Below, in pieces: positions 657 to 11,396 of a DNA stretch of 12,028 bases. Origin of the DNA: Campylobacter sp. (GTDB taxonomy: Bacteria; Campylobacterota; Campylobacteria; Campylobacterales; Campylobacteraceae); contig JAGAZK010000268.1 of NCBI GenBank assembly GCA_017940085.1, positions 1-12,028 on the forward strand, written 5' to 3'. Position numbers and translations under genes: made by a program. The notes under the pieces were generated by a model that worked only from the letters and a program-made list of their open reading frames with translations, was not told where the DNA came from and did no database searches. Position 1 is the stretch's first letter, and each line of letters starts with the position of its first letter.

Positions 657-1216
657 TTTTTCTCCCTAAATTGTCTATTAAATTCGCTAATTTCATCAGC
701 TAAGGCTTTGATTTCATTTTCACTCATAGCCTTCACCAAATCCGCCATAAGCACATTTGCTTTTGTTTTTGTTTTATATGCACTAATCATTTCAAAAATT
801 TGCTCATTTGTTTTATCTAAAAGAGAAGGTCCAATTATGCCGTTTGCATAATCATCATGACAAGCCGAGCATTTTTGGATAAAATTTTTACTTAATTTAC
901 CCCTAATCAAAGCTTTATTTATGCTTTGAAGCGGGCTACGCACAAAAGCTAAACCGCCAATTGCCGTTGCTGTTTGTTTGGCGCTCTCGTTTAAATCTGC
1001 ATTTTCTACGCCAAATTTGACCCTTTTTACGCCGTCCATATCATAGCTTGTGTAAGCATTTTGTAAATTTTGCAAATTTGAGTTTTCGCCTGATTTTATG
1101 GTGATTTCTCCGCTTTTTGTGTTTAAATTTGGCTCTAAATTTGTATTTTTGCTTTTTTCTTCACCGCACCCTAAAAATAAAACTAAACAAAACAGCACAA
1201 TTAAGTATTTTTTCAT
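653..1216 (-). CDS. nosC1: NosC1, monohaem cytochrome c lipoprotein
   Basis: 187 residues. The N-terminus MKKYLIVLFCLVLFLGC has a lipobox (LFLGC), so C17 should be lipidated and the protein held at a membrane facing the periplasm. A Lys/Asn/Ser-rich linker follows (about 18-55), then a region without recognisable motif (60-108), then a cytochrome c domain with CSACH (C116, C119, H120) and probable methionine ligand M157 (NVLMADL). The region around and after the haem motif resembles that of NosC2. The gene overlaps nosG upstream and nosC2 downstream by 4 bp each (ATGA), so translation is probably coupled. By family and position it is a candidate electron carrier to NosZ; that role is inferred, not visible in the sequence. 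Confidence 0.85.
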   Translation of the reverse strand: MKKYLIVLFCLVLFLGCGEEKSKNTNLEPNLNTKSGEITIKSGENSNLQNLQNAYTSYDMDGVKRVKFGVENADLNESAKQTATAIGGLAFVRSPLQSINKALIRGKLSKNFIQKCSACHDDYANGIIGPSLLDKTNEQIFEMISAYKTKTKANVLMADLVKAMSENEIKALADEISEFNRQFREKK

Positions 1217-1920
1217 AAAATTTCCTTTTTGTAAATTTGAGCATAAGTTGCATTTGGGATTATTTCAATGACATTTGCAAAACAAACTTCCACACAAACC
1301 CCACATCCAACGCAACTTTCATTTATTTTTGGCAATTTGGCTAAATTTTGCGAGTTTTCATTTAAATTTACAAATTCAATAGCTTTTGGCACAGGGCAAG
1401 AATTCACGCAAAGTTCGCAAATTTTGCCTTCGTTATTAGCGATAATCTCTTTTGCTTTTTCTTCTCTTTGGTTATAAGTTTTTCGCTTTAAAAGTTCGCT
1501 TATATCGCTGTTTTCAACCTTTTTTTCTAAATTTGCATAACATAAATTTACAAATTCGCTTTTTACCACAGCAACGCCCATTTTGACATCATCAATAGTT
1601 GTTGTTTTATGAGCTAATGCTCCGCTTGGACAGGCCAAAACGCAAGGAAAAAGATCGCACAAATAACAACCCCTTTTGTTTGCATTAATATAAGCAGTGG
1701 CTAAATTTATCCCGTCATCAAATCCTAAAAGTTCGATCGAGTGATATGGGCAAACTTGCACGCATTGTCCGCATTTTATGCAAAGCGAGTCAAATCTATC
1801 CACAGCTCCTGGTGGTCTTAGATGCAAATTTGGCTTAGCGTTAATTTTGATGCCAAGTCCGCTAAGTGTAGCTAAGCCTATAACACACGAGCCAAAAATC
1901 CCAAAATTTCGTCTAGTCAT
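1213..1920 (-). CDS. nosG: NosG, periplasmic polyferredoxin (NapG-like)
   Basis: 235 residues, with a twin-arginine-like start (MTRRNFGIFG) and hydrophobic stretch to about residue 28, suggesting Tat export of a folded iron-sulfur protein. LRPPGA (34-39) is shared with NapG in this window. Cysteine groups for 4Fe-4S clusters are: C47/50/53/57, C85/88/93/97, a third group C168/171/175, and C203/206/209/213. The first ligand of the third cluster is probably C127, which leaves a ~40-residue charged insertion (128-167) where NapG has only seven residues. NosG is thought to pair with membrane NosH as a menaquinol dehydrogenase for the nos pathway, parallel to NapGH. The gene overlaps nosD and nosC1 by 4 bp on either side. 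Confidence 0.9.
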   Translation of the reverse strand: MTRRNFGIFGSCVIGLATLSGLGIKINAKPNLHLRPPGAVDRFDSLCIKCGQCVQVCPYHSIELLGFDDGINLATAYINANKRGCYLCDLFPCVLACPSGALAHKTTTIDDVKMGVAVVKSEFVNLCYANLEKKVENSDISELLKRKTYNQREEKAKEIIANNEGKICELCVNSCPVPKAIEFVNLNENSQNLAKLPKINESCVGCGVCVEVCFANVIEIIPNATYAQIYKKEIL

Positions 1921-3128
1921 AAATTTGGCTCCGTTTTTGGTTTTTCATCGGTTAATATAAGTTCTGGCTCACTAAATGGGGCAAGTTTGGCGATGAAATT
2001 TAAAATACTCATCGCACTAGTTCCATAAAAAAACCGCATATTTGGATAATACTGCCAAAGCGTGTCAAAATACGCATAGTTTTGATACGGCGTGTCGCCA
2101 AAGCCGTTTTTGTCGCTATCAAAGCCTTCAAAATCATCAAAATAATTTTGCTCCCACGAAACTTTTGAAATAGCAGCACCCGGAGTATCATTTACGGCAA
2201 TGTCAAGATTGCCGATAAAATCGTTATTTTCAAATCTGCTCTCATGAAGTGTGGCGTGAAGCTGAACGCCTATGGTATTGTATAAAATTTGATTTTTTCT
2301 AAAAATATTTTTATGAGCCGGTTGAAATGGGGATTGATCAAGATAAAATCCCCTAGCGTTGTGCGAAAGAGTGTTGTTTTCTATGATGAAATTGCCCGTA
2401 TCTTTCATACCGATCCCAACCCCATAAGCTCCGTGTGAGTTAAAAACTCTATTTTCTCGCACCACGCAATCCCTTGAATACATAAAAAACATACCAACAG
2501 AATTTCCTTCAAATTCGTTTTGTTCAACTAAATTTTGCCCCGCATACATAAAATGAAGCGAATAACGGCTATTTGTGCCACGATTTTTGCGAATTTGATT
2601 ATTGCTTGAATACCAAATCACCATATCTTTGACTTCGTGGATAAAATTTTCTTCCATTATATTATCATGACTATACCAAAGGCGAATTCCATCTCCCCTA
2701 AGTGCGGTAGCAACGGGCTTTGAGCTGATTTCATTGTGAGTGATTTTAGCTCCGCTACACTCTTGCATATCTATGCCATAAAGTGCGTTTTTAATACGGT
2801 TTTGACTGATTTCAATATTATTTGCCTTTTCGCATTTAATGCCTGCGTCCAAATAAGTATGCGAATCTCCGCTATTTTCTATGGTTAAATTTAAAATTCT
2901 CACATTTGGTGCTATGATTTTTATGACATTGCCTTTTCCGCTTCCTTTTATCACGGCATTTTTATCAAGTCCTTTTAGCGTAATGCTTTTATTTATCACA
3001 ATATCGCCTTCATAAACTCCGCTTCCAAGCTCGATAATATCACCGTTTTTAGCCGAATTTATAGCTTCTTGTAAAGCATTAGCAAAAGCTAAATTTGCAA
3101 AAATCAACACCAAATTTATAAATTTCAC
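1917..3128 (-). CDS. nosD: NosD, periplasmic copper-site maturation protein
   Basis: 403 residues. The start codon is GTG (3128-3126), overlapping the nosB TGA; no ATG lies earlier in the open frame and the GTG gives a proper signal peptide (MKFINLVLIFANLAFANA, cleavage near residue 18). The body is made of repeated Asn/Gly-rich beta-strand units (for example NNIEISQNRIKNALYGIDMQ and NNQIRKNRGTNSRYSLHFMY), the parallel beta-helix (CASH/NosD) fold, spanning roughly residues 30-320. The C-terminal ~60 residues are outside the helix. NosD acts in the periplasm with the NosF/NosY ABC transporter to supply what the tetranuclear CuZ site of NosZ needs. nosF and nosY are not in the window but would be expected just past the left edge. 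Confidence 0.93.
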   Translation of the reverse strand: MKFINLVLIFANLAFANALQEAINSAKNGDIIELGSGVYEGDIVINKSITLKGLDKNAVIKGSGKGNVIKIIAPNVRILNLTIENSGDSHTYLDAGIKCEKANNIEISQNRIKNALYGIDMQECSGAKITHNEISSKPVATALRGDGIRLWYSHDNIMEENFIHEVKDMVIWYSSNNQIRKNRGTNSRYSLHFMYAGQNLVEQNEFEGNSVGMFFMYSRDCVVRENRVFNSHGAYGVGIGMKDTGNFIIENNTLSHNARGFYLDQSPFQPAHKNIFRKNQILYNTIGVQLHATLHESRFENNDFIGNLDIAVNDTPGAAISKVSWEQNYFDDFEGFDSDKNGFGDTPYQNYAYFDTLWQYYPNMRFFYGTSAMSILNFIAKLAPFSEPELILTDEKPKTEPNL

Positions 3129-3889
3129 TTAGCTTTTTCCTTTAAAAATTTGTTTTTTGATAGTATTGCTAAAATACAAAGCACACTCATCGCTATCATC
3201 ACCCAAAATCCAATACTAGGATATGAATGCGTGGTAAATTGCGCTACTTTGCCGTCCCCAAGAGCAGTTGGCATAAACGGCTTAATCTTAAATGCACCCC
3301 ACTCTTGCATATTGTGTCCATACCAGTATAACCAGCCTGTAAATGCACCCATAAACAAAATCGGTGCGATGATAGTCGGCACGAGCAAAAGTGAGTTAAA
3401 TTTACCGTTATAATACAAATACCAAATCATAAGCAAAGTCGCCACTAGCAAATAATACGGTGCGATAGACCGCTCGACATTTCCGCCATGCTCCATAGGA
3501 TACATACCGATATAGTGGTTTATCGTATTCATCTCATGCACATCGCCGCTATAACCATCTACATGAAAATAAACAGGAATTCCATCAGGAAATGCTTCTT
3601 TTGGATAATTTGGAGCTTCTAAGCTCACATACCACACAGGCAAAGACGGAACGCCGATTTCAGCCCTAGTTTCTATGAGCTTGTCTAAATCATTTTTGAC
3701 ATCATCTGGGATTATGTGGTTTTTATACTGCAATTTTGTGTATTGATTGAAAATCATTTTTGTATAGGTTGGTATTGGTTGATTGTTTTTTATTTTTGCT
3801 CCCATACCGTGAAATGAAATAACAGGGATTGTAAAGCCGATTGTCATTAAGATTAGGGCTAGGATAGTATAAATTTGATATTTTTTCAT
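3125..3889 (-). CDS. nosB: NosB, membrane protein of clade II nos clusters
   Basis: 254 residues with four predicted membrane helices: about 5-27, 141-161, 166-190 and 225-244. Between helices 1 and 2 is a ~115-residue extramembrane domain with conserved-looking His and aromatic residues (HYIGMYPMEHGG at 125-136). No cofactor motif is visible. NosB is a hallmark of atypical (clade II) nos clusters, encoded between nosZ and nosD; its biochemical role is unresolved to my knowledge. A strong ribosome site (AAGGAAAAGAG) sits directly upstream of the ATG. The gene is separated from nosZ by 520 bp but overlaps nosD by 4 bp, so it opens the accessory block. Assignment rests on topology and position. 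Confidence 0.85.
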   Translation of the reverse strand: MKKYQIYTILALILMTIGFTIPVISFHGMGAKIKNNQPIPTYTKMIFNQYTKLQYKNHIIPDDVKNDLDKLIETRAEIGVPSLPVWYVSLEAPNYPKEAFPDGIPVYFHVDGYSGDVHEMNTINHYIGMYPMEHGGNVERSIAPYYLLVATLLMIWYLYYNGKFNSLLLVPTIIAPILFMGAFTGWLYWYGHNMQEWGAFKIKPFMPTALGDGKVAQFTTHSYPSIGFWVMIAMSVLCILAILSKNKFLKEKAK

Positions 3890-3904
3890 CTCTTTTCCTT
3901 AAAC

Positions 3905-4000
3905 GGCTTGATTTTTGAGTGCTTTTTCGTGAGCTTGTAAATTTCTCACTCGATAGGCGTTTTAGCCTTATCTCGCTCGAAATTTACTACGCAACACAAA
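3905..4000 (-). repeat. Inverted ~100-bp repeat, copy A
   Basis: Read on the minus strand this copy aligns with copy B at about 4151-4252 on the plus strand. Shared blocks in the same order are GTGTTG, CGAGATA, ATCGAGT, CTCACG and CAAAAA. The centre of each copy is itself a hairpin of about 51 nt. Divergence between the copies is considerable, so the pair is old or the family is variable. Confidence 0.65.
3937..3987. repeat. Imperfect hairpin in copy A
   Basis: Outer arms GTAAATTTC (3937-3945) and GAAATTTAC (3979-3987) are perfect complements. Inside them lie partly complementary CTCGATAGGC and GCCTTATCTCG around a short loop. Total length is 51 nt. Confidence 0.7.
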
Positions 4001-4090
4001 AAATCATCTCAAAACTCTTCGCCTTGTGGTTTTTAAATTTATAAATTTAAAAATTTAGACAAATTTGTAAATTTATAAATTTGAAAAATT

Positions 4091-4124
4091 AGCAAATTTG
4101 GCAAATTTAATCGCCAAATTTGCT
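4091..4124. repeat. 12-bp stem-loop, possible weak attenuator
   Basis: Arms AGCAAATTTGGC (4091-4102) and GCCAAATTTGCT (4113-4124) are perfectly complementary with a 10-nt loop. On the transcribed (minus) strand the stem is followed by AATTTTTC, a short U-run, so it could lower read-through from nosZ into nosB. The stem is AT-rich, so strong termination is unlikely. Confidence 0.5.
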
Positions 4125-4150
4125 TGTAAATTTGTTAAATTAGTAAATTT

Positions 4151-4252
4151 TGCGTGTTGTGCAGTGAAAAATTTACGAGATAGAACAACAAAGTTCATCG
4201 AGTAAATTTTTCACAAATCTCACGCAAAATTACCCAAAAACATGATTTTTGA
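4151..4252 (+). repeat. Inverted ~100-bp repeat, copy B
   Basis: Plus-strand partner of the copy at about 3905-4000, with GTGTTG, CGAGATA, ATCGAGT, CTCACGCAAAA and CAAAAACATG in corresponding order. It encloses the perfect 13-bp stem at 4164-4214. The two copies face each other across about 150 bp of AAATTT-rich sequence. Confidence 0.65.
4164..4214. repeat. 13-bp perfect inverted repeat in copy B
   Basis: GTGAAAAATTTAC (4164-4176) pairs exactly with GTAAATTTTTCAC (4202-4214). The inner bases CGAGATAGAA and TTCATCGA extend the pairing with mismatches. Length (51 nt) and core sequence match the hairpin at 3937-3987, marking both as members of one repeat family. Confidence 0.75.
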
Positions 4253-4291
4253 GCTATTTTTAGGGTTGCAAAGATTTTGCGAAATGAGACG

Positions 4292-4340
4292 AAATTTACA
4301 CGATGCAAGAAATGCGAACAGCATTTTTGCGTGTAAATTT
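4292..4340. repeat. Third ~50-nt hairpin of the island
   Basis: Outer arms AAATTTACACG (4292-4302) and CGTGTAAATTT (4330-4340) are complementary. Inside, GCAAGAAATGC and GCATTTTTGC continue the stem with a bulge and mismatch around a GAACA loop. The AAATTTAC edge is shared with the other hairpins but the interior differs from copies A and B. Confidence 0.65.
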
Positions 4341-4409
4341 GGAAATAAATTTCCTTGTGCCCGTCGCAGTAGAGCAAAATCAAGTCTCCCTAAAAAGAGC
4401 CAAAAAGCA

Positions 4410-7001
4410 CTAATTTAACCCCGCATTTTCATCAATCCATTTTAGGTATTCAATTATATTTTTAATCTCCTCATCGCTCATATTTTGATTTGGCATTCGC
4501 AAGTTAAAATAATTAATCATTGCTTTGACATAATCTTCTTCATATTTGCTAGCAGGATTTTTAATAAAATCGCTTACCCATTTTTCGGCATTTTCATGTC
4601 TTAGTAAAACTCCTGTTAGATCAGGACCTGAGCTTACTTGACCGATGACATGGCAACCATTGCAACCACCTTTTAAGTAGGCTTCTTCTCCTTTTGCGGC
4701 AATCGCACTCATAGGAGTTGCTAACTCTCTTGTAAGGTTGTTTTTAGCCCTAAGTCCGACATCGGCAGTTTTTACCATATATTGCCAAACTTGATATTCC
4801 CATAAAATCGCATTGTTTAAATCGCCTTTTTTGTGTGCTTCATCGGCTTTTGCTTTGACTTCTGCGATTTTGCCGTATTGATCGAGTGCATCTTCGACTA
4901 GTCGTTTGACTTTTGGGAATTTTTCATATTGTTTTTCTTTTAAGAAAGCAACAACACTTTGAATTACATCATCAGTTGCTTTGTTTGTCGCAATTACTTT
5001 GTCATACTCTGCTTTTAGTTGTTCAGGGCTTAATTTCAACAAATTTGCTTTTCTTGCAGATTCATATTTTTTCTTTGGATCTTTTACAAGCAAATATCCC
5101 ATCATTTCTAAGTGTAAAGCAGAGCAAAACTCGGTGCAGTAGTATGGGAAAACGCCTTCCATATCGGCTTTAAATGTAACGCTTGAAGTCTTACCAGGCT
5201 CGATTGAAGCATGGACATTATAAATATCAATGCCAAATCCGTGAGTTTCATCTTGGGCTCTTTCAAGGTTGGTTAGATAAATCGTTACCTCATCGCCTTT
5301 ATTTACTTCGATGTGCTCAGGATTTATATGGCTTCGCACCAAAGTAGCATAAACGCTGACTTTATTGCCGTTTCGCTCAATCCTTTCTTGACCGGCTAGT
5401 GTCATACCTTTGTGTTCTTTTCCAGTTCTTGAATTTGTTCCCATTTTGTATGAGACATGCGGATTTAGCTTACTTGCTGAGATTGAAATAACATCGTGCG
5501 GCTCACCAAGAGGAATTGGCATATCATAGATTAACTCCATTTTTGCACCACCAATATCAATTAATTGGTGATTTTGTGGGTGCAAAGGACCAACAGGATT
5601 AAATCTATCGATTGAGAGCTTATCTAATGCGATAACATATTTTCCTTTTGGTTTGGCTGATTTACCTTCCATAGAATCAAGGTGTCCGATGTTATAATGC
5701 ACATTTACTCTATCTAAGACTTTTAAATTTTTGTAATCCCACTTAACAACTTGCGAATCAACATAAAGGCTAGTATAAACTATACCGTCTTTTGTCTCAA
5801 AAGTGCTATGAAGCGGTCCAAGTCCAAGCTCAACTTGTCCGTGTAGAGATTTTTTCATATCCAAAATCGGTATCCCAAATGGATCTTTACCAGCAAAATC
5901 TTTTTTGTCAATCAATGCTTTGATTTTTGTGAAATCATAAACACTAGCGTGAGTATCGAGCTTACCACCTACGATGATGTATCTGCCATCTGGTGTAACA
6001 TCAACTCCGTGTGGAGATTTTGGCTCAGGGATCAAAAACAAAGCATTGTTTTTGACAGCAACTTCAATCGGAATAACTTTATGTCCATTGATAACTTTGT
6101 AATTTTTCTTATCAGCGACTAGTTTTTCTAAAATTTGCCAGTTATAAACATGCAAATAATCCGTATCATTTCGGCTCATACCTGCTTCAAAAGGTGGTAA
6201 GCCTTTTTGTATGCCACCAGTATACATTTCTGAATTGAAACTATTTGTAAAAGCCCAACCCATAGAAATGCCTTTTCCGGCATCACTTAGATCTTGCATA
6301 TAAGGTGGGAGTTCGAGAGAAAATGATTTGTTTTCTTCGATTTTACCGCTTTGATAATTAAATTTCCACATAGTAATCGCACCACGATATACAGCTTCAT
6401 ATTCATCTATCGGATGCCAATCATTATCAAGTGGAGCAGCGTATTGACTAGCTTCTATGACATACTCAGTATTTGGAGTAACAAAGCTTCCGCCGTGTTC
6501 GCTTTTCATAATCGGATTTACCACGATTTGAGTGGTTTCAAAATCTTTTAAATTTATAACAGCAATTCTAGGATTTGCTTTGTCGTTGATAAAAAGATAA
6601 TCCCCCATATATTCGCCGTTTTTCTCGCTAAAATTTGGGTGGTGAGTATCGCCCCAGGATATTTCTTTGCCCCTAATCGCACCGCCTTTTAAGATAGCTT
6701 TACTTTCGTTGTCATATCCATACCCTTGCCATGGTTCAGGCGTAAAAACACCGATATATTTGTAAATTCTCATGGACGGGACGCCATAAACTATGACTTG
6801 TCCGCTTTGTCCGCCTGAGCTAAAGACGATAAATTCGTCTCTCTTGCCACTTGGCTGATATGTTTTTGCAGCCGCCAAAATATCTTTTTCGCTTAGATTT
6901 CGCTTTTTCATAATGGTTTCAAGCTCACTTGCAGCGAAACTTGAGCTGACCATACACAAAGCTGCACCCAAAGCCAAAAAGGTTTTAGTAAAAGCTTTCA
7001 T
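4410..7001 (-). CDS. nosZ: Nitrous oxide reductase NosZ, clade II, with fused cytochrome c domain
   Basis: 863 residues. It reduces N2O to N2 in the periplasm. A Sec signal peptide (MKAFTKTFLALGAALCMVSS..., cleavage about residue 23) rather than a Tat signal is the mark of atypical clade II NosZ. The N-terminal seven-bladed propeller carries all CuZ histidines: H120 and H121 (DTHHP), H169 (EHGG), H331 (SPHG), H398 (GPLH), H440 (IGH) and H502 (EPHD). The cupredoxin domain has the CuA site: H587 (ETHGF), then C622, C626, H630 and M633 in YYCTEFCSALHLEM. After a helical, charged linker (about 645-765) comes a monohaem cytochrome c domain with CNGCH (C780, C783, H784) and probable ligand M836, as in other epsilonproteobacterial NosZ. 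A strong ribosome site sits 11 nt after the preceding gene's stop. No essential residue is missing. Confidence 0.98.
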   Translation of the reverse strand: MKAFTKTFLALGAALCMVSSSFAASELETIMKKRNLSEKDILAAAKTYQPSGKRDEFIVFSSGGQSGQVIVYGVPSMRIYKYIGVFTPEPWQGYGYDNESKAILKGGAIRGKEISWGDTHHPNFSEKNGEYMGDYLFINDKANPRIAVINLKDFETTQIVVNPIMKSEHGGSFVTPNTEYVIEASQYAAPLDNDWHPIDEYEAVYRGAITMWKFNYQSGKIEENKSFSLELPPYMQDLSDAGKGISMGWAFTNSFNSEMYTGGIQKGLPPFEAGMSRNDTDYLHVYNWQILEKLVADKKNYKVINGHKVIPIEVAVKNNALFLIPEPKSPHGVDVTPDGRYIIVGGKLDTHASVYDFTKIKALIDKKDFAGKDPFGIPILDMKKSLHGQVELGLGPLHSTFETKDGIVYTSLYVDSQVVKWDYKNLKVLDRVNVHYNIGHLDSMEGKSAKPKGKYVIALDKLSIDRFNPVGPLHPQNHQLIDIGGAKMELIYDMPIPLGEPHDVISISASKLNPHVSYKMGTNSRTGKEHKGMTLAGQERIERNGNKVSVYATLVRSHINPEHIEVNKGDEVTIYLTNLERAQDETHGFGIDIYNVHASIEPGKTSSVTFKADMEGVFPYYCTEFCSALHLEMMGYLLVKDPKKKYESARKANLLKLSPEQLKAEYDKVIATNKATDDVIQSVVAFLKEKQYEKFPKVKRLVEDALDQYGKIAEVKAKADEAHKKGDLNNAILWEYQVWQYMVKTADVGLRAKNNLTRELATPMSAIAAKGEEAYLKGGCNGCHVIGQVSSGPDLTGVLLRHENAEKWVSDFIKNPASKYEEDYVKAMINYFNLRMPNQNMSDEEIKNIIEYLKWIDENAGLN

Positions 7002-7006
7002 AGGCT

Positions 7007-7012
7007 CTCCTT
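7007..7012 (-). promoter_or_regulatory. Ribosome binding site of nosZ
   Basis: AAGGAG (followed by AGCCT and the ATG) lies in the 11-nt gap between the upstream gene's TAA and the nosZ start. It fits a consensus Shine-Dalgarno at good spacing and supports strong independent initiation of nosZ even if translation of the upstream gene stops early. Confidence 0.85.
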
Positions 7013-7894
7013 TTAAAAATTTGTATCAGTATGGATACTCTTTAGATTACAATTATAAATAGCCCTATTCCACATAACTACGAGTAAATTTGAGCTATCA
7101 ATAAACAATTCCTTGATTTCATCAGCTTTTAAATTTATTTGTTTTTTTATATGAAAATTTAAATCCGAAATTATTAAATTTGATTTGCTATCGCCAAAAT
7201 ACAAGGCATTTTGTCCAACTTTTATGGCACTAATTTTATTTTTTGAGATTTCATAAATTTGATTTTTATACCAAATTTTTCCATCAATCATACTGGCAAG
7301 TGGTTTATTGTCTAAAATCTCAACTTTTGTTATTAAATTTGGCAAATTTGCGATTTTGTTTATACTAAAATCTCCCAAATTTAATTCATATAAATTTCTA
7401 TCAAAACACGCGATAAAAACGGAATTTTCGCTGATTTTACTATCAATTATTTTTGAGTTTAAATTTGTAGTTTTGCTTTTGTAAATTCGGTTGATAAAAT
7501 CATAAACAATAGCGTGATTTTTGCTTAAAAATACGGCTTTGTCTTTGGTGAGTAAAATTTGATTAAAAGGTTGGTTGATTTTTGTTTTGAGCGGATCTAA
7601 AATATCTTGAGTTGAGTTTAAATTTATTGTTTTGACACTTTTATCGTCAAAACTAACTAGTAAATCCCCCCCCCCTAACAATTTAGCTGAGATAATGTTG
7701 TTTGCTTGGCTTGTATAAGAAAACAAATCATCAAATTTAGAAGTATTTTTAATAAGAAGTTTTTTAGTGTCAAAAAGAGCAAGTTTTGAGTCTATAAAAT
7801 CAGCCCCAACTATGTCTTTAGTGCTGTCTAAAATAATATTACAATTTCCAAAACATAAGCTACTAAAAAGCAATATATTAAGCAAAATTCTCAT
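7013..7894 (-). CDS. Unassigned exported propeller-like protein with poly-G tract, upstream of nosZ
   Basis: I do not recognise a named family. From the ATG at 7894 the product is 293 residues, with a signal peptide (MRILLNILLFSSLCFG). A GTG four codons further upstream (7906) is also in frame, but the ATG gives the cleaner signal sequence and has AAGTGAG at a suitable distance. The rest is about 270 residues of short beta strands and turns (for example GDLLVSFDDKSVKTI, NSVFIACFDRNLYELNL, NALYFGDSKSNLIISDL), the pattern of a beta-propeller, loosely like NapL in this window. There are no cofactor motifs. Ten consecutive G at codons 74-76 keep the frame open; one G more or less gives a stop within five codons. 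The gene has its own probable promoter and sits 11 nt before nosZ, so it likely serves N2O reduction, perhaps in NosZ assembly or electron transfer. That role is inference from position only. Confidence 0.8.
   Translation of the reverse strand: MRILLNILLFSSLCFGNCNIILDSTKDIVGADFIDSKLALFDTKKLLIKNTSKFDDLFSYTSQANNIISAKLLGGGDLLVSFDDKSVKTINLNSTQDILDPLKTKINQPFNQILLTKDKAVFLSKNHAIVYDFINRIYKSKTTNLNSKIIDSKISENSVFIACFDRNLYELNLGDFSINKIANLPNLITKVEILDNKPLASMIDGKIWYKNQIYEISKNKISAIKVGQNALYFGDSKSNLIISDLNFHIKKQINLKADEIKELFIDSSNLLVVMWNRAIYNCNLKSIHTDTNF
7666..7675 (-). repeat. Poly-G(10) tract, probable phase-variation switch
   Basis: Ten G in a row on the coding strand (C on the plus strand), inside the gene at 7013-7894, encoding Gly-Gly-Gly and the first base of the next Asp codon. 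No other G or C run in the window that I noticed exceeds about five. With nine G the reading becomes Ile-Tyr-stop; with eleven, Gly-Phe-Thr-Ser-stop. Tracts of this kind in Campylobacter change length by slipped-strand mispairing. The sequenced copy is in the ON state. Confidence 0.85.
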
Positions 7895-7917: not shown

Positions 7918-7926
7918 ATTATAGCA
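7918..7926 (-). promoter_or_regulatory. Extended -10 promoter for the nos unit
   Basis: On the minus strand TGCTATAAT fits the extended -10 consensus TGNTATAAT exactly. Upstream of it are a T8 run and other T-rich phased stretches (7927-7945), with no clear -35, which is the usual form of sigma-70 promoters in Campylobacter. A start of transcription near 7911 would leave about 17 nt before the ATG at 7894. I see no convincing FNR- or NssR-type operator palindrome in the spacer. The spacer also shows no clear rho-independent terminator after napD, so read-through from nap is possible. Confidence 0.7.
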
Positions 7927-8008: not shown

Positions 8009-8344
8009 TTAAATTTTCAAATGTCCGCTATACTCAATATCTTTGGCGTCTTTAGAATCTATTTCTAGCATGATGTTTTCTAGATTGTTGTTATTTACAG
8101 CTTCTATATCATCATCTAAATCTTGATAAGTATAAATCATCGACACATCTCTTACGCCTTGCATGGCTTGGATATTTTTAAATACTTTTATTTCATAATC
8201 AAGCTCTTCGCTTTCAATCGTAACTACAATCTTATCATCTTGGTTTGCAGCGACTTCACAACCTTCTATTTTTGAAATCTCAGCGATTAAATTTTGGGCT
8301 AAAGACTGATCTTTTAGATAAACAACTAAACTAGAAATATTCAT
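8009..8344 (-). CDS. napD: NapD, chaperone for nitrate reductase NapA
   Basis: 111 residues, cytoplasmic, no signal or membrane segment. The N-terminus MNISSLVVYL and the ferredoxin-like alternation of strands and helices (EISKIEGCEVAA, KIVVTIES, FKNIQAMQGVRDVSMIYTY) match NapD, the small protein that binds the Tat signal of NapA and holds back export until the molybdenum cofactor is in place. The acidic C-terminal tail (about 77-111) goes beyond the conserved core. The start overlaps the napL TGA by 4 bp. It ends the nap cluster; the next gene begins after a ~115-nt AT-rich spacer. Confidence 0.9.
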   Translation of the reverse strand: MNISSLVVYLKDQSLAQNLIAEISKIEGCEVAANQDDKIVVTIESEELDYEIKVFKNIQAMQGVRDVSMIYTYQDLDDDIEAVNNNNLENIMLEIDSKDAKDIEYSGHLKI

Positions 8345-9243
8345 TTATAACTCCAAAAATGTATAGTTTTGTCATATCCAGCTCCCACTAGATAATCCCC
8401 ATAAAATATTAAATAATTGATAATTTCGCCATCATAAGGAATTTTTTCGATGATATTTCCTTTGGTATCGATTATATTGATCCCATCTTCTACGCTAAAT
8501 GCACCAAATTCATCACTTAATGCGACACTATAAACCAAAAATCCAGCATTGAAAAATTTCCACGCATTGCCATTTTCATAATAACAAGTTTTGTCATTTG
8601 AGCCGGTAATAACGCGGTTTTTATTCATCGCTACGCTAAAAATATTGTCTTTGTGAATACTTTTTTCGCGTAAAAATTTCTTATTTTTAGTATCAAAAAA
8701 ATAAATCACACCACCTTCATTTGAAAGCAACAAAAGATTTTTTTGTCTATCAAAAGCCACTCCACCAAAAGGCGAATCTGAGATTTTATGCGAAAATGTA
8801 ACTTTTTTTGAGTTTATATCAAAATACAAAATCTCACTACCAATTCCTAGCAAGATTAAGGTGTTTTCATCAAGAAAAAACAATCTTTTTATGCCAGTTA
8901 TCGGGGGAGAAAATTTTGTAAGTTCGCCATTTTCATAAATACCAAGAGCTTTGTGCATATAATCATCATCTATCAAAAGAGCAAATTTAGAGTCAAATTT
9001 GTCCATATCTATGATTTTTGAATCAATTTGCCCGTCAATATAGCTTTTGATTTGCGGTAATGTAAAAATGAGTTCGGTTTTATTATTTTTGCGATCAAAT
9101 TTAAATAATTTTCCAGCATCTGTCCCTGCATAAATCGCATCATCAAAATGCTTCAAAACAGCGATATTTCCAACAACTTCAATTTTTTGGTCTCCAAAAA
9201 CAACGCTCAACAAAAACACAAAAACAATAAAAAACTTTTTCAT
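8341..9243 (-). CDS. napL: NapL, periplasmic WD-like propeller protein
   Basis: 300 residues, signal peptide MKKFFIVFVFLLSVVFG, then a propeller of WD40-like repeats; the last ones are easiest to see (NRVITGSNDKTCYYENG near 210-226 and YLVGAGYDKTIHFWSYK at the C-terminus). This and the position between napB and napD fit NapL, found in epsilonproteobacterial nap operons in place of other accessory genes. Its exact function is not settled; in this group it is regarded as an accessory factor for full Nap activity. AAAGGTG serves as ribosome site. The gene follows a 55-nt gap containing a perfect hairpin and overlaps napD by 4 bp (ATGA). Confidence 0.88.
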   Translation of the reverse strand: MKKFFIVFVFLLSVVFGDQKIEVVGNIAVLKHFDDAIYAGTDAGKLFKFDRKNNKTELIFTLPQIKSYIDGQIDSKIIDMDKFDSKFALLIDDDYMHKALGIYENGELTKFSPPITGIKRLFFLDENTLILLGIGSEILYFDINSKKVTFSHKISDSPFGGVAFDRQKNLLLLSNEGGVIYFFDTKNKKFLREKSIHKDNIFSVAMNKNRVITGSNDKTCYYENGNAWKFFNAGFLVYSVALSDEFGAFSVEDGINIIDTKGNIIEKIPYDGEIINYLIFYGDYLVGAGYDKTIHFWSYK

Positions 9244-9254
9244 TTTACACCTTT

Positions 9255-9290
9255 AAATTTGCGTAAATTTAAGCAAATTTACGCAAATTT
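9255..9290. repeat. 16-bp perfect hairpin between napB and napL
   Basis: Arms AAATTTGCGTAAATTT (9255-9270) and AAATTTACGCAAATTT (9275-9290) are exact complements around a 4-nt loop. It fills most of the 55-nt gap between the napB stop and the napL start. On the minus strand it is not followed by a U-run but by the napL ribosome site, so it is more likely an mRNA stability or processing element than a terminator. Confidence 0.8.
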
Positions 9291-9298
9291 TATTAAAT

Positions 9299-9880
9299 TT
9301 ATTCTGCACCTTGATTTAAAACATCAAGCAAATTTGAATTTGACTTAGAATCGCCATATCTAAATTCTGCATTGAAGTTATTTTGAACAAGTGCTTTTGC
9401 ATTTGTTTGTGCCACATGGCAAGAAACACAATCATATCTAGCCATTGACAATTTGCCTTCAACAAATGTTTGTTTTTCATCTCTTAGATCAGCCATATGG
9501 CTTTTTGGCACAGAAGTAGCATTTAAATCTTTTGCAAATTCTGGTAGGTGGCAAGAGATACACATATTGTTCTCAGTGGTAATAGGCAACATATCTTCAA
9601 TCGTATGAGAAATAAGTGGTGGAGCATTTTCAAAGCTTCTTTCAACCAATTTGCTCTCGCCTGCTGCTTGAGTATTTTGCTCAAAAGTAGGCAACACCAA
9701 ATCTTCGCTAGTCAAATCAGATCTAAATCCTATCTCTGCATCGCTAACTGATTGTTGTTGTTGAGCTTGTGGCTGTTCAGGGCTTACCATTCCTTGCTCT
9801 GTTTTGTTATCAGAGCAACCGCTCAATCCCAAACACACGATAATAAACGCTATCGTGGAAGAAATCAACATTTTTTTCAT
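9299..9880 (-). CDS. napB: NapB, dihaem cytochrome c subunit of nitrate reductase
   Basis: 193 residues. Two haem motifs, CISCH (C107, C110, H111) and CVSCH (C151, C154, H155), and the expected distal histidines H92 (PPLISHTI) and H128 (KSHMADLR) identify NapB, the electron-transfer partner of NapA in the periplasm. The N-terminus MKKMLISSTIAFIIVCLGLSGCSDNK contains a lipobox (LSGC, C22) followed by a Gln-rich spacer (about 36-45), so this NapB is predicted to be a lipoprotein on a flexible arm rather than freely soluble. The start at 9880 is supported by AGGAG 7 nt upstream; a second ATG follows at codon 4. It overlaps the napH TGA by 4 bp. Confidence 0.95.
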   Translation of the reverse strand: MKKMLISSTIAFIIVCLGLSGCSDNKTEQGMVSPEQPQAQQQQSVSDAEIGFRSDLTSEDLVLPTFEQNTQAAGESKLVERSFENAPPLISHTIEDMLPITTENNMCISCHLPEFAKDLNATSVPKSHMADLRDEKQTFVEGKLSMARYDCVSCHVAQTNAKALVQNNFNAEFRYGDSKSNSNLLDVLNQGAE

Positions 9881-10656
9881 TTTTTTACTCCTAAAATACT
9901 AAAACTCAAAGCATCATCATGGCAAATTTCCACGCAACGACCGCAACTTATGCACTCAGAGCTTATTTTAAAATCTTGTTTTCCTATTAGATCTAAAACT
10001 TGCACTTCTGGACAGACCGTTTTGCATTTATTGCATTTTTCACATTTGCTTACATTATGATAGATGCGAATTAGACTAAATTTACTTATTATCGCCCAAA
10101 ATCCGCCAAGCGGACATAAATGGGAGCATATTACTCTATTTCCAGCAAAAACTTCAAATACGACAACGACTATGGCAATAGCAACAGCAGTAATACTCAA
10201 ACTAGTAACCGCTCTTGTAAAAAATCCCACAAAATTTAATGTTTCAAAAGCAGCAATACTGAAAAATCCGCTACAAACAAGAGCTAAAACAACCAAATAA
10301 TATCTTGTTTTATTGCTAAGGTTTAATATTTTTGCTCTAATATCTAGCTTTGCTCTAATCCAAGCTGCTAAATCAGTCAGTAAATTTATAGGACATACCC
10401 AGCCGCAATACGCTCTTGGTGCGATTATCGCATAAAATACTAGCACAATCAATGCACCAAATAAGCTCGTAGTAGCTATACTAAAACTTGCTAAAAATAA
10501 TTGAAGCAAGGCAAATGGATCGCTTAAATTTATGCTATCAAAAAGCATTGATGAGCTTAAATTTCCTTGCAAAATCTTAATCCCATAGCAGTTTCCTGCT
10601 ATAAACAATGCAAGAATACCGAGTTGAACTATTCTTCTAAATATTGTCCATTTCAT
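9877..10656 (-). CDS. napH: NapH, membrane quinol dehydrogenase subunit
   Basis: 259 residues with about four membrane helices (near 8-26, 58-80, 118-137 and 152-172). Two CxxxCP motifs, CGWVCP (C84, C88) and CSHLCP (C177, C181), follow helices, and two 4Fe-4S ferredoxin sites sit in the cytoplasmic C-terminus (C205/208/211/215 and C235/238/241/245). This is the standard layout of NapH. NapH and NapG together oxidise menaquinol and pass electrons to NapB, replacing the NapC cytochrome of other bacteria; no napC is present here. The start overlaps the napG stop by 4 bp and the end overlaps napB by 4 bp. Confidence 0.95.
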   Translation of the reverse strand: MKWTIFRRIVQLGILALFIAGNCYGIKILQGNLSSSMLFDSINLSDPFALLQLFLASFSIATTSLFGALIVLVFYAIIAPRAYCGWVCPINLLTDLAAWIRAKLDIRAKILNLSNKTRYYLVVLALVCSGFFSIAAFETLNFVGFFTRAVTSLSITAVAIAIVVVVFEVFAGNRVICSHLCPLGGFWAIISKFSLIRIYHNVSKCEKCNKCKTVCPEVQVLDLIGKQDFKISSECISCGRCVEICHDDALSFSILGVKK

Positions 10657-11396
10657 AGCTCATCTCCGTCATTTAAGTAATCAGTGCCTTTTTTTAGATT
10701 TAATTTGATGTCGCTTTTGACATCATCTAATCTAGCATCATCGCCTTCTATCCAACCTTTGACATAATTGTCATTTGGGATACCTAAAACTACATTTCTA
10801 GGAAGTATAGTAATAGCTGGTTTTTGGGTTATACAGACTTTTTCGCACTTACCACAACCAGTGCAATAATCACTATCTACAACAGGAAGCAATAAAGCGT
10901 GTTTATCTGTTCTATCGTTGCGTTTGTATTCAATAAACAAAGCCTTATCCAAAACAGGACAGGCTCTATAACAAGCATCGCATTGTATTCCAAAAAATGC
11001 GACACAATTTTTTTGATCTACTACAGCAACACCCATTTGAGCTTTGTTAATATTTAATTCTCCGTTTTCGCTAACTAGATCTTTATCTAATGCACCAGTA
11101 GGACATTTGACCGTGCAAGGAATATCTTCACACATATAGCATGGAATTTTCCTTGGCTCGAAAAAAGGCGTCCCATTTGGCACACCGCCATCACGAAATT
11201 CGGCTAATTTTAGAGTATCAAATGGACAGGCTTCAACACAAAGCCCACAACGAATACACTTACTCATAAAGTCTTTTTCGTCTTTGGCTCCTGGTGGGCG
11301 GAGTTTTATTTTGTCATTTGCAAGAGCAAATTCACAAAATCCCGTGCCACCAGCTACAAGCAGTCCGATCAAACCTAAAACTTCGCGTCTTTGCAT
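10653..11396 (-). CDS. napG: NapG, periplasmic polyferredoxin
   Basis: 247 residues. A twin-arginine start (MQRREVLGLIGLLVAGG) indicates Tat export. LRPPGAKDE (32-40) leads into four 4Fe-4S cysteine groups: C47/50/53/57, C86/89/94/98, C131/139/142/146 and C178/181/184/188, which is complete. It is the periplasmic partner of NapH in electron delivery to NapB/NapA. It begins 2 nt after the napA stop and overlaps napH by 4 bp. It is clearly related to NosG in the left half of the window, which suggests that the Nap and Nos quinol-oxidising modules derive from a common ancestor. Confidence 0.96.
   Translation of the reverse strand: MQRREVLGLIGLLVAGGTGFCEFALANDKIKLRPPGAKDEKDFMSKCIRCGLCVEACPFDTLKLAEFRDGGVPNGTPFFEPRKIPCYMCEDIPCTVKCPTGALDKDLVSENGELNINKAQMGVAVVDQKNCVAFFGIQCDACYRACPVLDKALFIEYKRNDRTDKHALLLPVVDSDYCTGCGKCEKVCITQKPAITILPRNVVLGIPNDNYVKGWIEGDDARLDDVKSDIKLNLKKGTDYLNDGDEL

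Follow-up and report, generated by a model that had tools for sequence, protein, structure and literature searches.

A candidate phase-variable poly-G tract at the head of a Campylobacter nitrous oxide reductase operon

Introduction

Can a run of ten guanines in the first gene of a nos operon act as an ON/OFF switch, and could such a switch reach the respiration of nitrous oxide? Phase variation in Campylobacter has mainly been studied for surface structures and for escape from immunity or phages, and if a respiratory operon were switched likewise, energy metabolism would be hedged too. Switching through poly-G tracts is in itself well established and ordinary in this genus: among 1,944 poly-G/C tracts counted in a genus-wide phasome survey, 53% have a length of 9 and 26% a length of 10, and 77% lie in open reading frames (PMC6321876). 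Here we analyse a 12,028-nucleotide stretch of Campylobacter DNA, referred to below as the window, in which a first-pass annotation made from the letters alone had singled out such a tract in the gene directly upstream of nosZ.

Results

The window belongs to contig C254 of a metagenome-assembled genome (G000; 1,500,737 bases in 268 contigs, 83.55% complete), and the minus strand encodes its main genes. They comprise the end of a nap operon (napG-H-B-L-D, 8009..11396), a gene that we call X, nosZ, a gene for a 254-residue membrane protein, nosD and a gene for a NapG/NosG-type ferredoxin, after which two small cytochrome-c-like proteins are encoded. The NapD and NapB matches fall below cut-off, and the names napG, napH and napL are our assumption from gene order. 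The product of nosZ (4410..7001, minus strand) is a Sec-type (clade II) nitrous-oxide reductase (TIGR04246, 858.6 bits with a cut-off of 625) with a C-terminal cytochrome c domain (Pfam), and nosD (1917..3128, minus strand) scores 418.3 bits with TIGR04247 (cut-off 300). The membrane protein of the nos cluster (3125..3889, minus strand) matches no NCBIfam family at E ≤ 0.01 and is presumably NosB-like, as judged by its position, while the ferredoxin (1213..1920, minus strand) stays below the cut-offs of the NapG models. About 520 nt between nosZ and the next nos gene (3890-4409) hold no convincing gene and many AAATTT words.

Gene X is separated from the nosZ start codon by 11 nt (7002-7012), exactly the spacing that had been noted at first sight, and a GATACAAATTTTTAAAAGGAGAGCC block (7003..7027, minus strand), similar by eye in genus relatives, contains both the X stop codon and the ribosome-binding site of nosZ. 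The first-pass annotation had also placed X at the head of the nos unit, and comparison bears this out. We collected the nos regions of 59 genomes with nosZ over the family cut-off (63 of the 153 family genomes have any nosZ match), and in 51 of the 59 an ORF of 229-407 aa ends at most 50 nt before nosZ, with one of the 51 truncated at a contig end after 91 aa and homology tested for only some of them. The place is empty in the other eight regions, those of G066 and seven g9 genomes, and X may therefore be dispensable for N2O reduction.

Gene X (7013..7894, minus strand) encodes 293 residues when read from ATG 7894 and 297 residues from GTG 7906. The ATG is the likelier start, because a TATAAT at 7918..7923 (minus strand), the likely -10 box of an X/nos promoter, leaves little room for the GTG. 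TATAAT-like boxes stand at a similar position in many genus relatives, as judged by eye; the box at 7918-7923 is missing from the output of a sigma-70 scan, which demands a -35. A signal peptide can be recognized by eye. According to the AlphaFold2 model of the 293 residues (pLDDT 90.0, pTM 0.87), X is a β-propeller, and a Foldseek search with this model returned WD40-type and designed propellers as the best matches (best E = 2.3e-13). Sequence families are less informative: X has no NCBIfam family at E ≤ 0.01 and a single weak Pfam match below cut-off, while the database domains of its homologues are PF17005 for P0005 and PF20067 plus PF24807 for P0009. Residues C18 and C282 show almost no variation and are jointly lost in two loci (L015 and L016), which suggests that a disulfide closes the propeller ring. 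The neighbouring NapL is likewise an exported, propeller-like protein of a nitrogen-oxide respiratory operon (weak WD40-type Pfam matches), but it shares no meaningful sequence match with X (BLASTP E = 0.59 within the window), and the idea that X is a NapL paralogue was rejected.

A search with one query sequence found X homology at E ≤ 0.001 in 20 of the 153 family genomes, some of the matches not being the nos gene, and a profile search adds homologues in further g2 genomes. Another profile search (A1) yielded 46 proteins among the 7,993 scored candidates sharing most words. Forty of these are 377-404 aa long, two of them named C. rectus; P0009 is named C. californiensis. No tract signature was noted in the eight proteins of this search that were examined. 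The ω values (NG86) of X homologues are low in seven of eight pairs (0.11-0.43) and reach 0.99 in one almost identical pair, and these low values, together with the recurrent position upstream of nosZ, indicate that X is a maintained gene and not debris.

Several side observations concern X. Second, weaker X-like matches lie distant from nosZ in four genus genomes, at L021-L024 (G002, G014, G006 and G003), and are perhaps NapL or another propeller. At L187-L191 (G050 and G053-G056), X reaches 338-407 aa through an Asn/Leu/Thr-rich low-complexity insert of varying length, behind which no DNA tandem repeat was found in the two loci tried. The main BLASTN similarity of the window to G072 (91.5% over 3.2 kb, covering the rest of X and nosZ) starts 118 nt 3' of the tract, at about 7548; neither nap nor the 5' third of X, which includes the tract, has a BLASTN match to G072 at E 1e-10. 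With the match confined to the 3' part of X and to nosZ, X looks mosaic.

The tract itself reads C10 at positions 7666-7675 of the plus strand, that is, G10 on the coding strand of X (7666..7675, minus), where it forms codons 74-76 (GGG GGG GGG) and the first base of codon 77, in frame. Its position inside the gene for an exported protein had been given correctly, and the frame outcomes that had been worked out by eye for G8 to G11 were reproduced by computation. The X frame is open with G7, G10 and G13. G9 leads to Ile-Tyr-stop and a product of 78 aa, G8 and G11 lead to Phe-Thr-Ser-stop (79 and 80 aa, respectively), and G8, G9, G11 and G12 all terminate X at 78-80 aa. A shift of the tract by one or two units consequently gives an early stop in X, the behaviour by which contingency genes are recognized, and the length of ten exceeds the PhasomeIt threshold for such genes (a G/C tract of at least 7 in an ORF or promoter). 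In these respects X is the same as the known Campylobacter poly-G contingency genes, with an ORF that contains G9-10 on its coding strand and a frameshift that brings an early stop (PMC6321876). In the AlphaFold2 model, the tract sits in a turn between strands 67-72 and 78-82.

For runs of at least ten, a first-order Markov model of the window predicts 0.0007 of C and 0.00007 of G, and a chance origin of the G10 is very unlikely. In the 11 other window genes examined, GGG accounts for 19 of 221 glycine codons, and none of these genes encodes Gly-Gly-Gly.

The genomic background was examined in 16 genomes of the genus. None has a MutS1 over the TIGR01070 cut-off, and 15 show no more than a weak partial match, whereas 11 of 14 control genomes exceed the cut-off; for the window's own genome this absence is that of an assembly 83.55% complete. 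Rho is over cut-off in 15 of the 16, the sixteenth having a partial match, and G9 tracts occur in all 16. G000 contains 20 distinct G tracts of at least 8, two of length 8, 15 of length 9 and three of length 10. Deep reads published for three genomes of the C. fetus group show 76 of 97 tracts of at least 8 to be variable (PMC4943207, PMC4153485), which makes variability likely for a tract of the kind found in X. Individually, 29 of 34 and 24 of 29 tracts are variable in two C. fetus testudinum genomes (PMC4943207), and 23 of 34 are hypervariable in C. iguaniorum 1485E (PMC4153485). The variable share is lower in relatives with few tracts, at 2 of 5 for C. californiensis and 1 of 6 for C. concisus, and is 49 of 51 for C. 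mucosalis (PMC11457942); C. gracilis ATCC 33236 is reported to be without contingency genes (PMC4574385).

Among the 13 genus genomes with X, two have a tract inside the gene and two have a tract upstream of it. The in-gene tract of G015 is a G9 at codon 92, in frame and in a loop, and amounts to a net gain of 3 nt compared with five relatives reading CCCAAAAGG, two of which (L010, L012) read CCCAAAAGGGG. In both G000 and G015 the tract falls in a turn of the early propeller. The upstream tracts, a G9 in G014 and a G10 in G004, lie 136 and 267 nt before the X start codon, respectively, and may serve something other than X. G072, which is sister to G000 in the NosZ tree, lacks a G tract; a T15 stands ten nt upstream of its X TATAAT (-10), and this is the sole A/T run longer than 9 in the 59 regions (897,699 bases). 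The same operon head therefore carries long homopolymers in five lineages at five different positions, either coding or in or before the promoter. The g2 regions showed no tract at X; in five of them the contig ends near or inside X. The remaining long G tract of the regions is a G11 at L089:1848 (G006), 7.8 kb upstream of nosZ, and the nos region at L193 (G067) is one without a long tract.

At the protein level, Gly-Gly-Gly is retained in P0001 (99% identity) and P0002 (84%), and the tract is therefore not an error of one assembly. Gly-Gly-Gly is missing from G072 (73%) and P0003 (70%); in P0005 (34%, by which it is another species), seen as protein only, an inserted Gly-Gly-Gly occupies almost the same loop. 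The two in-gene tracts known at the DNA level are both ON. We searched for OFF alleles by comparing the N-terminal halves of X from the window, L011, P0005 and P0002 with 5.8 billion proteins, and found none ending at a tract; only P0006-P0008, pieces of tract-free relatives, were returned, and clustering at 90% together with the small number of contigs limits the sensitivity of this search. When three tracts were examined for RNA structure, there was no excess over shuffled sequences (z = -1.07, -0.13 and -0.29). The central proposal of the first-pass annotation, a phase-variable tract, thus gains from its length, strand, frame logic and genomic setting, but both in-gene tracts being ON and the lack of a frameshifted N-terminal product in the search weigh on the other side. 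A homologous gene lacking the tract had been named there among the observations that would count against switching, and most homologous X genes are indeed tract-free.

The distribution of run lengths sets the long tracts apart. In the 58 nos regions besides that of the window (885,671 bases), there are 1,247 G/C runs of length 4, 93 of length 5 and two of length 6; none has a length of 7-8, and two have a length of 9, one of 10 and one of 11. The gap at 7-8 indicates that the long tracts are a separate class. With long homopolymers defined as G/C runs of at least 7 or A/T runs of at least 10, and with the window excluded, these regions contain five, four of which are in X or at most 280 nt upstream of it. 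For the 1.2-kb stretch tested, which makes up 7.6% of the bases, this clustering has a p-value of about 0.00015, compared to 0.0009 with a 2-kb boundary and 0.07 if the 3 kb on either side of the nosZ start are taken; all of these are post hoc values, the boundary having been picked after viewing the data, and a few regions end near X. By another estimate, which assumes a uniform spread and is based on 479 9-mer matches with overlapping ones counted, about 0.35 tracts are expected by chance at the X stretches of the 12 other nosZ-carrying genus genomes, and three were seen. Across many genes, some would gather several tracts by chance. On a 19-row NosZ tree (G020 and G021 left out, G012 and G013 partial), the four genomes with G tracts require four changes, a value that also holds throughout the 5-95% range of 200 bootstrap trees. 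As few changes are required in 500 of 500 label shuffles, so the tree speaks for separate origins and not for clustering.

Discussion

We consider it likely that the G10 is a slipped-strand contingency tract that switches X ON and OFF, probably with some polarity on nosZ. Copying slips would alter the tract by one or two G and thereby give rise to mixed populations. At lengths of 7, 10 and 13, X would be read through and the exported propeller protein made, whereas at lengths of 8, 9, 11 and 12 translation would stop two or three codons past the tract, with the loss of about three quarters of the propeller. Cells in the OFF state would lose X and probably also part of the nosZ transcript through Rho, because X is first in the nos unit, about 640 nt before nosZ (7013..7655, minus strand) would be left untranslated, and the host has Rho. 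The first ~130 nt of this segment contain the 78-nt stretch of X with the largest excess of C over G (C-minus-G of 0.205). Values of at least 0.2 occur at 7 of 805 positions in X, at 3 of 688 in the NosB-like gene and at none in ten other genes. The outcome would be a population in which some cells are ready for N2O respiration and others are not, and the recurrence of homopolymers at this operon head would be expected if variability in the expression of X or the nos unit has been favoured repeatedly.

It is a real possibility, if short of a probable one, that the tract varies and yet switches X only. In that case nosZ would still be translated independently and sufficiently transcribed, and the role of X would be a minor one such as NosZ tuning, cytochrome docking or sensing. 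This explanation overlaps with the one we prefer, in which the effect on nosZ is itself the conjectural part, and it agrees with the strong ribosome-binding site that nosZ has of its own, with the regions that have no X before nosZ (8/59) and with a promoter and terminator scan that did not settle read-through into nosZ. However, in 51/59 regions the unit begins with an ORF at the X position, and the T15 of G072 belongs to the promoter preceding X, from where it would affect the entire unit if this is one transcript. We regard it as unlikely that the glycines form a fixed neutral loop that arose by drift, favoured by hypermutability of the background, and that further tracts at the locus are coincidental. 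The gap in run lengths between 6 and 9, the rarity of GGG elsewhere, the clustering of long runs at X and the variability of most tracts of such length in the C. fetus group (PMC4943207, PMC4153485) all argue against it, even if both in-gene tracts are in frame, the protein search returned no OFF allele and the loop is one that tolerates insertions. Neutrality would also be in keeping with the genus phasome, where 347 of 536 phase-variable gene groups are found in one isolate only (PMC6321876).

Two further explanations are less likely still. Transcriptional or ribosomal slippage in each cell, in place of heritable switching, might yield a constant low level of frameshifted product, and long homopolymers can make RNA polymerase slip. 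This is nevertheless very improbable: the known sites are mostly A/T runs, the encoded frame is open so that slipping only loses product, and the intergenic tracts of the relatives would be unable to act in this way. Least credible of all is an error in homopolymer length introduced by metagenome assembly, which the fragmented state of G000 might bring to mind. The frame is open across 293 aa, Gly-Gly-Gly is also present in P0002 and in P0001, whose cluster includes a contig of 43,827 bases, and relatives assembled into a single or few contigs carry tracts at the same operon head.

Returning to the contingency tract that we favour, what stands out is the respiratory target, together with several lineages that apparently reached the same operon head separately. 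X differs from the genes of the PhasomeIt catalogue in that it heads a respiratory operon (PMC6321876). The core phasome table of that study lists methyltransferases, flagellar and glycan genes, autotransporters, chemoreceptors and many hypotheticals, along with a few metabolic genes (AnsA, MurD, MenA) (PMC6321876). The names of nos genes are absent from its Table 1, in which the hypothetical entries are not matchable to X (PMC6321876). The closest parallel is MenA of the C. fetus core phasome, which has a G7-9 and thus, like X, a homopolymer on the respiratory side, in menaquinone synthesis (PMC6321876, Table 1). Unlike X, it would affect all menaquinone-linked respiration and not one terminal acceptor, and it is not described in that source as the head of an operon (PMC6321876). 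The first-pass remark that a respiratory switch would be unusual, the known ones serving mostly surface structures, accordingly needs to be softened in view of MenA. For the T15 of G072, a parallel is provided by PorA of Neisseria meningitidis, where a homopolymer in the promoter alters expression (PMC3639595); in PorA this is a poly-G in a porin promoter, whereas G072 has a poly-T before a nos operon, with a putative role beside the -10 of X. In titles and abstract openings linking Campylobacter or phase variation with N2O or respiration, we found no report of a phase-variable nos gene.

A broader proposal, which we put forward tentatively and hold to be somewhat doubtful, is that N2O respiration itself may be a contingency trait in C. 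fetus-like campylobacters. Homopolymer switching would then have arisen independently by way of translation (G000, G015), the promoter (G072) and the upstream region (G014, G004), and gut populations would be mixtures of N2O-reducing and N2O-emitting cells. If this is true, the N2O consumed or released by gut Campylobacter would depend on tract lengths and not on gene content, and caution would be called for where nosZ gene counts are used as a proxy of N2O reduction.

Two other elements came to light during the analysis. A palindrome, TTGATNNNNATCAA, which we take to be of the Crp/Fnr type, was considered as an element of X and set aside, its exact copy being absent from the window. Exact copies are present in 11 of the 59 nos regions (L086, L089, L096, L098, L183 and L186-L191), 700-1500 nt before nosZ, in a scan that included some regions with little upstream sequence. 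The second element emerged from the other G tracts of G000, 15 of 19 of which were examined. Eight of the 15 belong to one dispersed intergenic element, and the rest include, as assigned by eye, a DUF2172/M28-like (Cj1295-like) gene and glycosyltransferase-, formyltransferase-, PdxA- and LysR-like genes. The dispersed element is found on contigs C10, C19, C24, C33, C35, C45, C130 and C179 (L056, L058, L061, L063, L065, L067, L076 and L078) and has the form TAAGCTAATTTTAAT-G8..10-TAGAATAATACTTTG, with the G tract immediately before a -10-like box; from these sequence features it looks like a family of switchable promoters. On C10, C19, C24, C35 and C130, the element is followed by an ATG and a similar coding sequence, the product of which appears by eye to be secreted.
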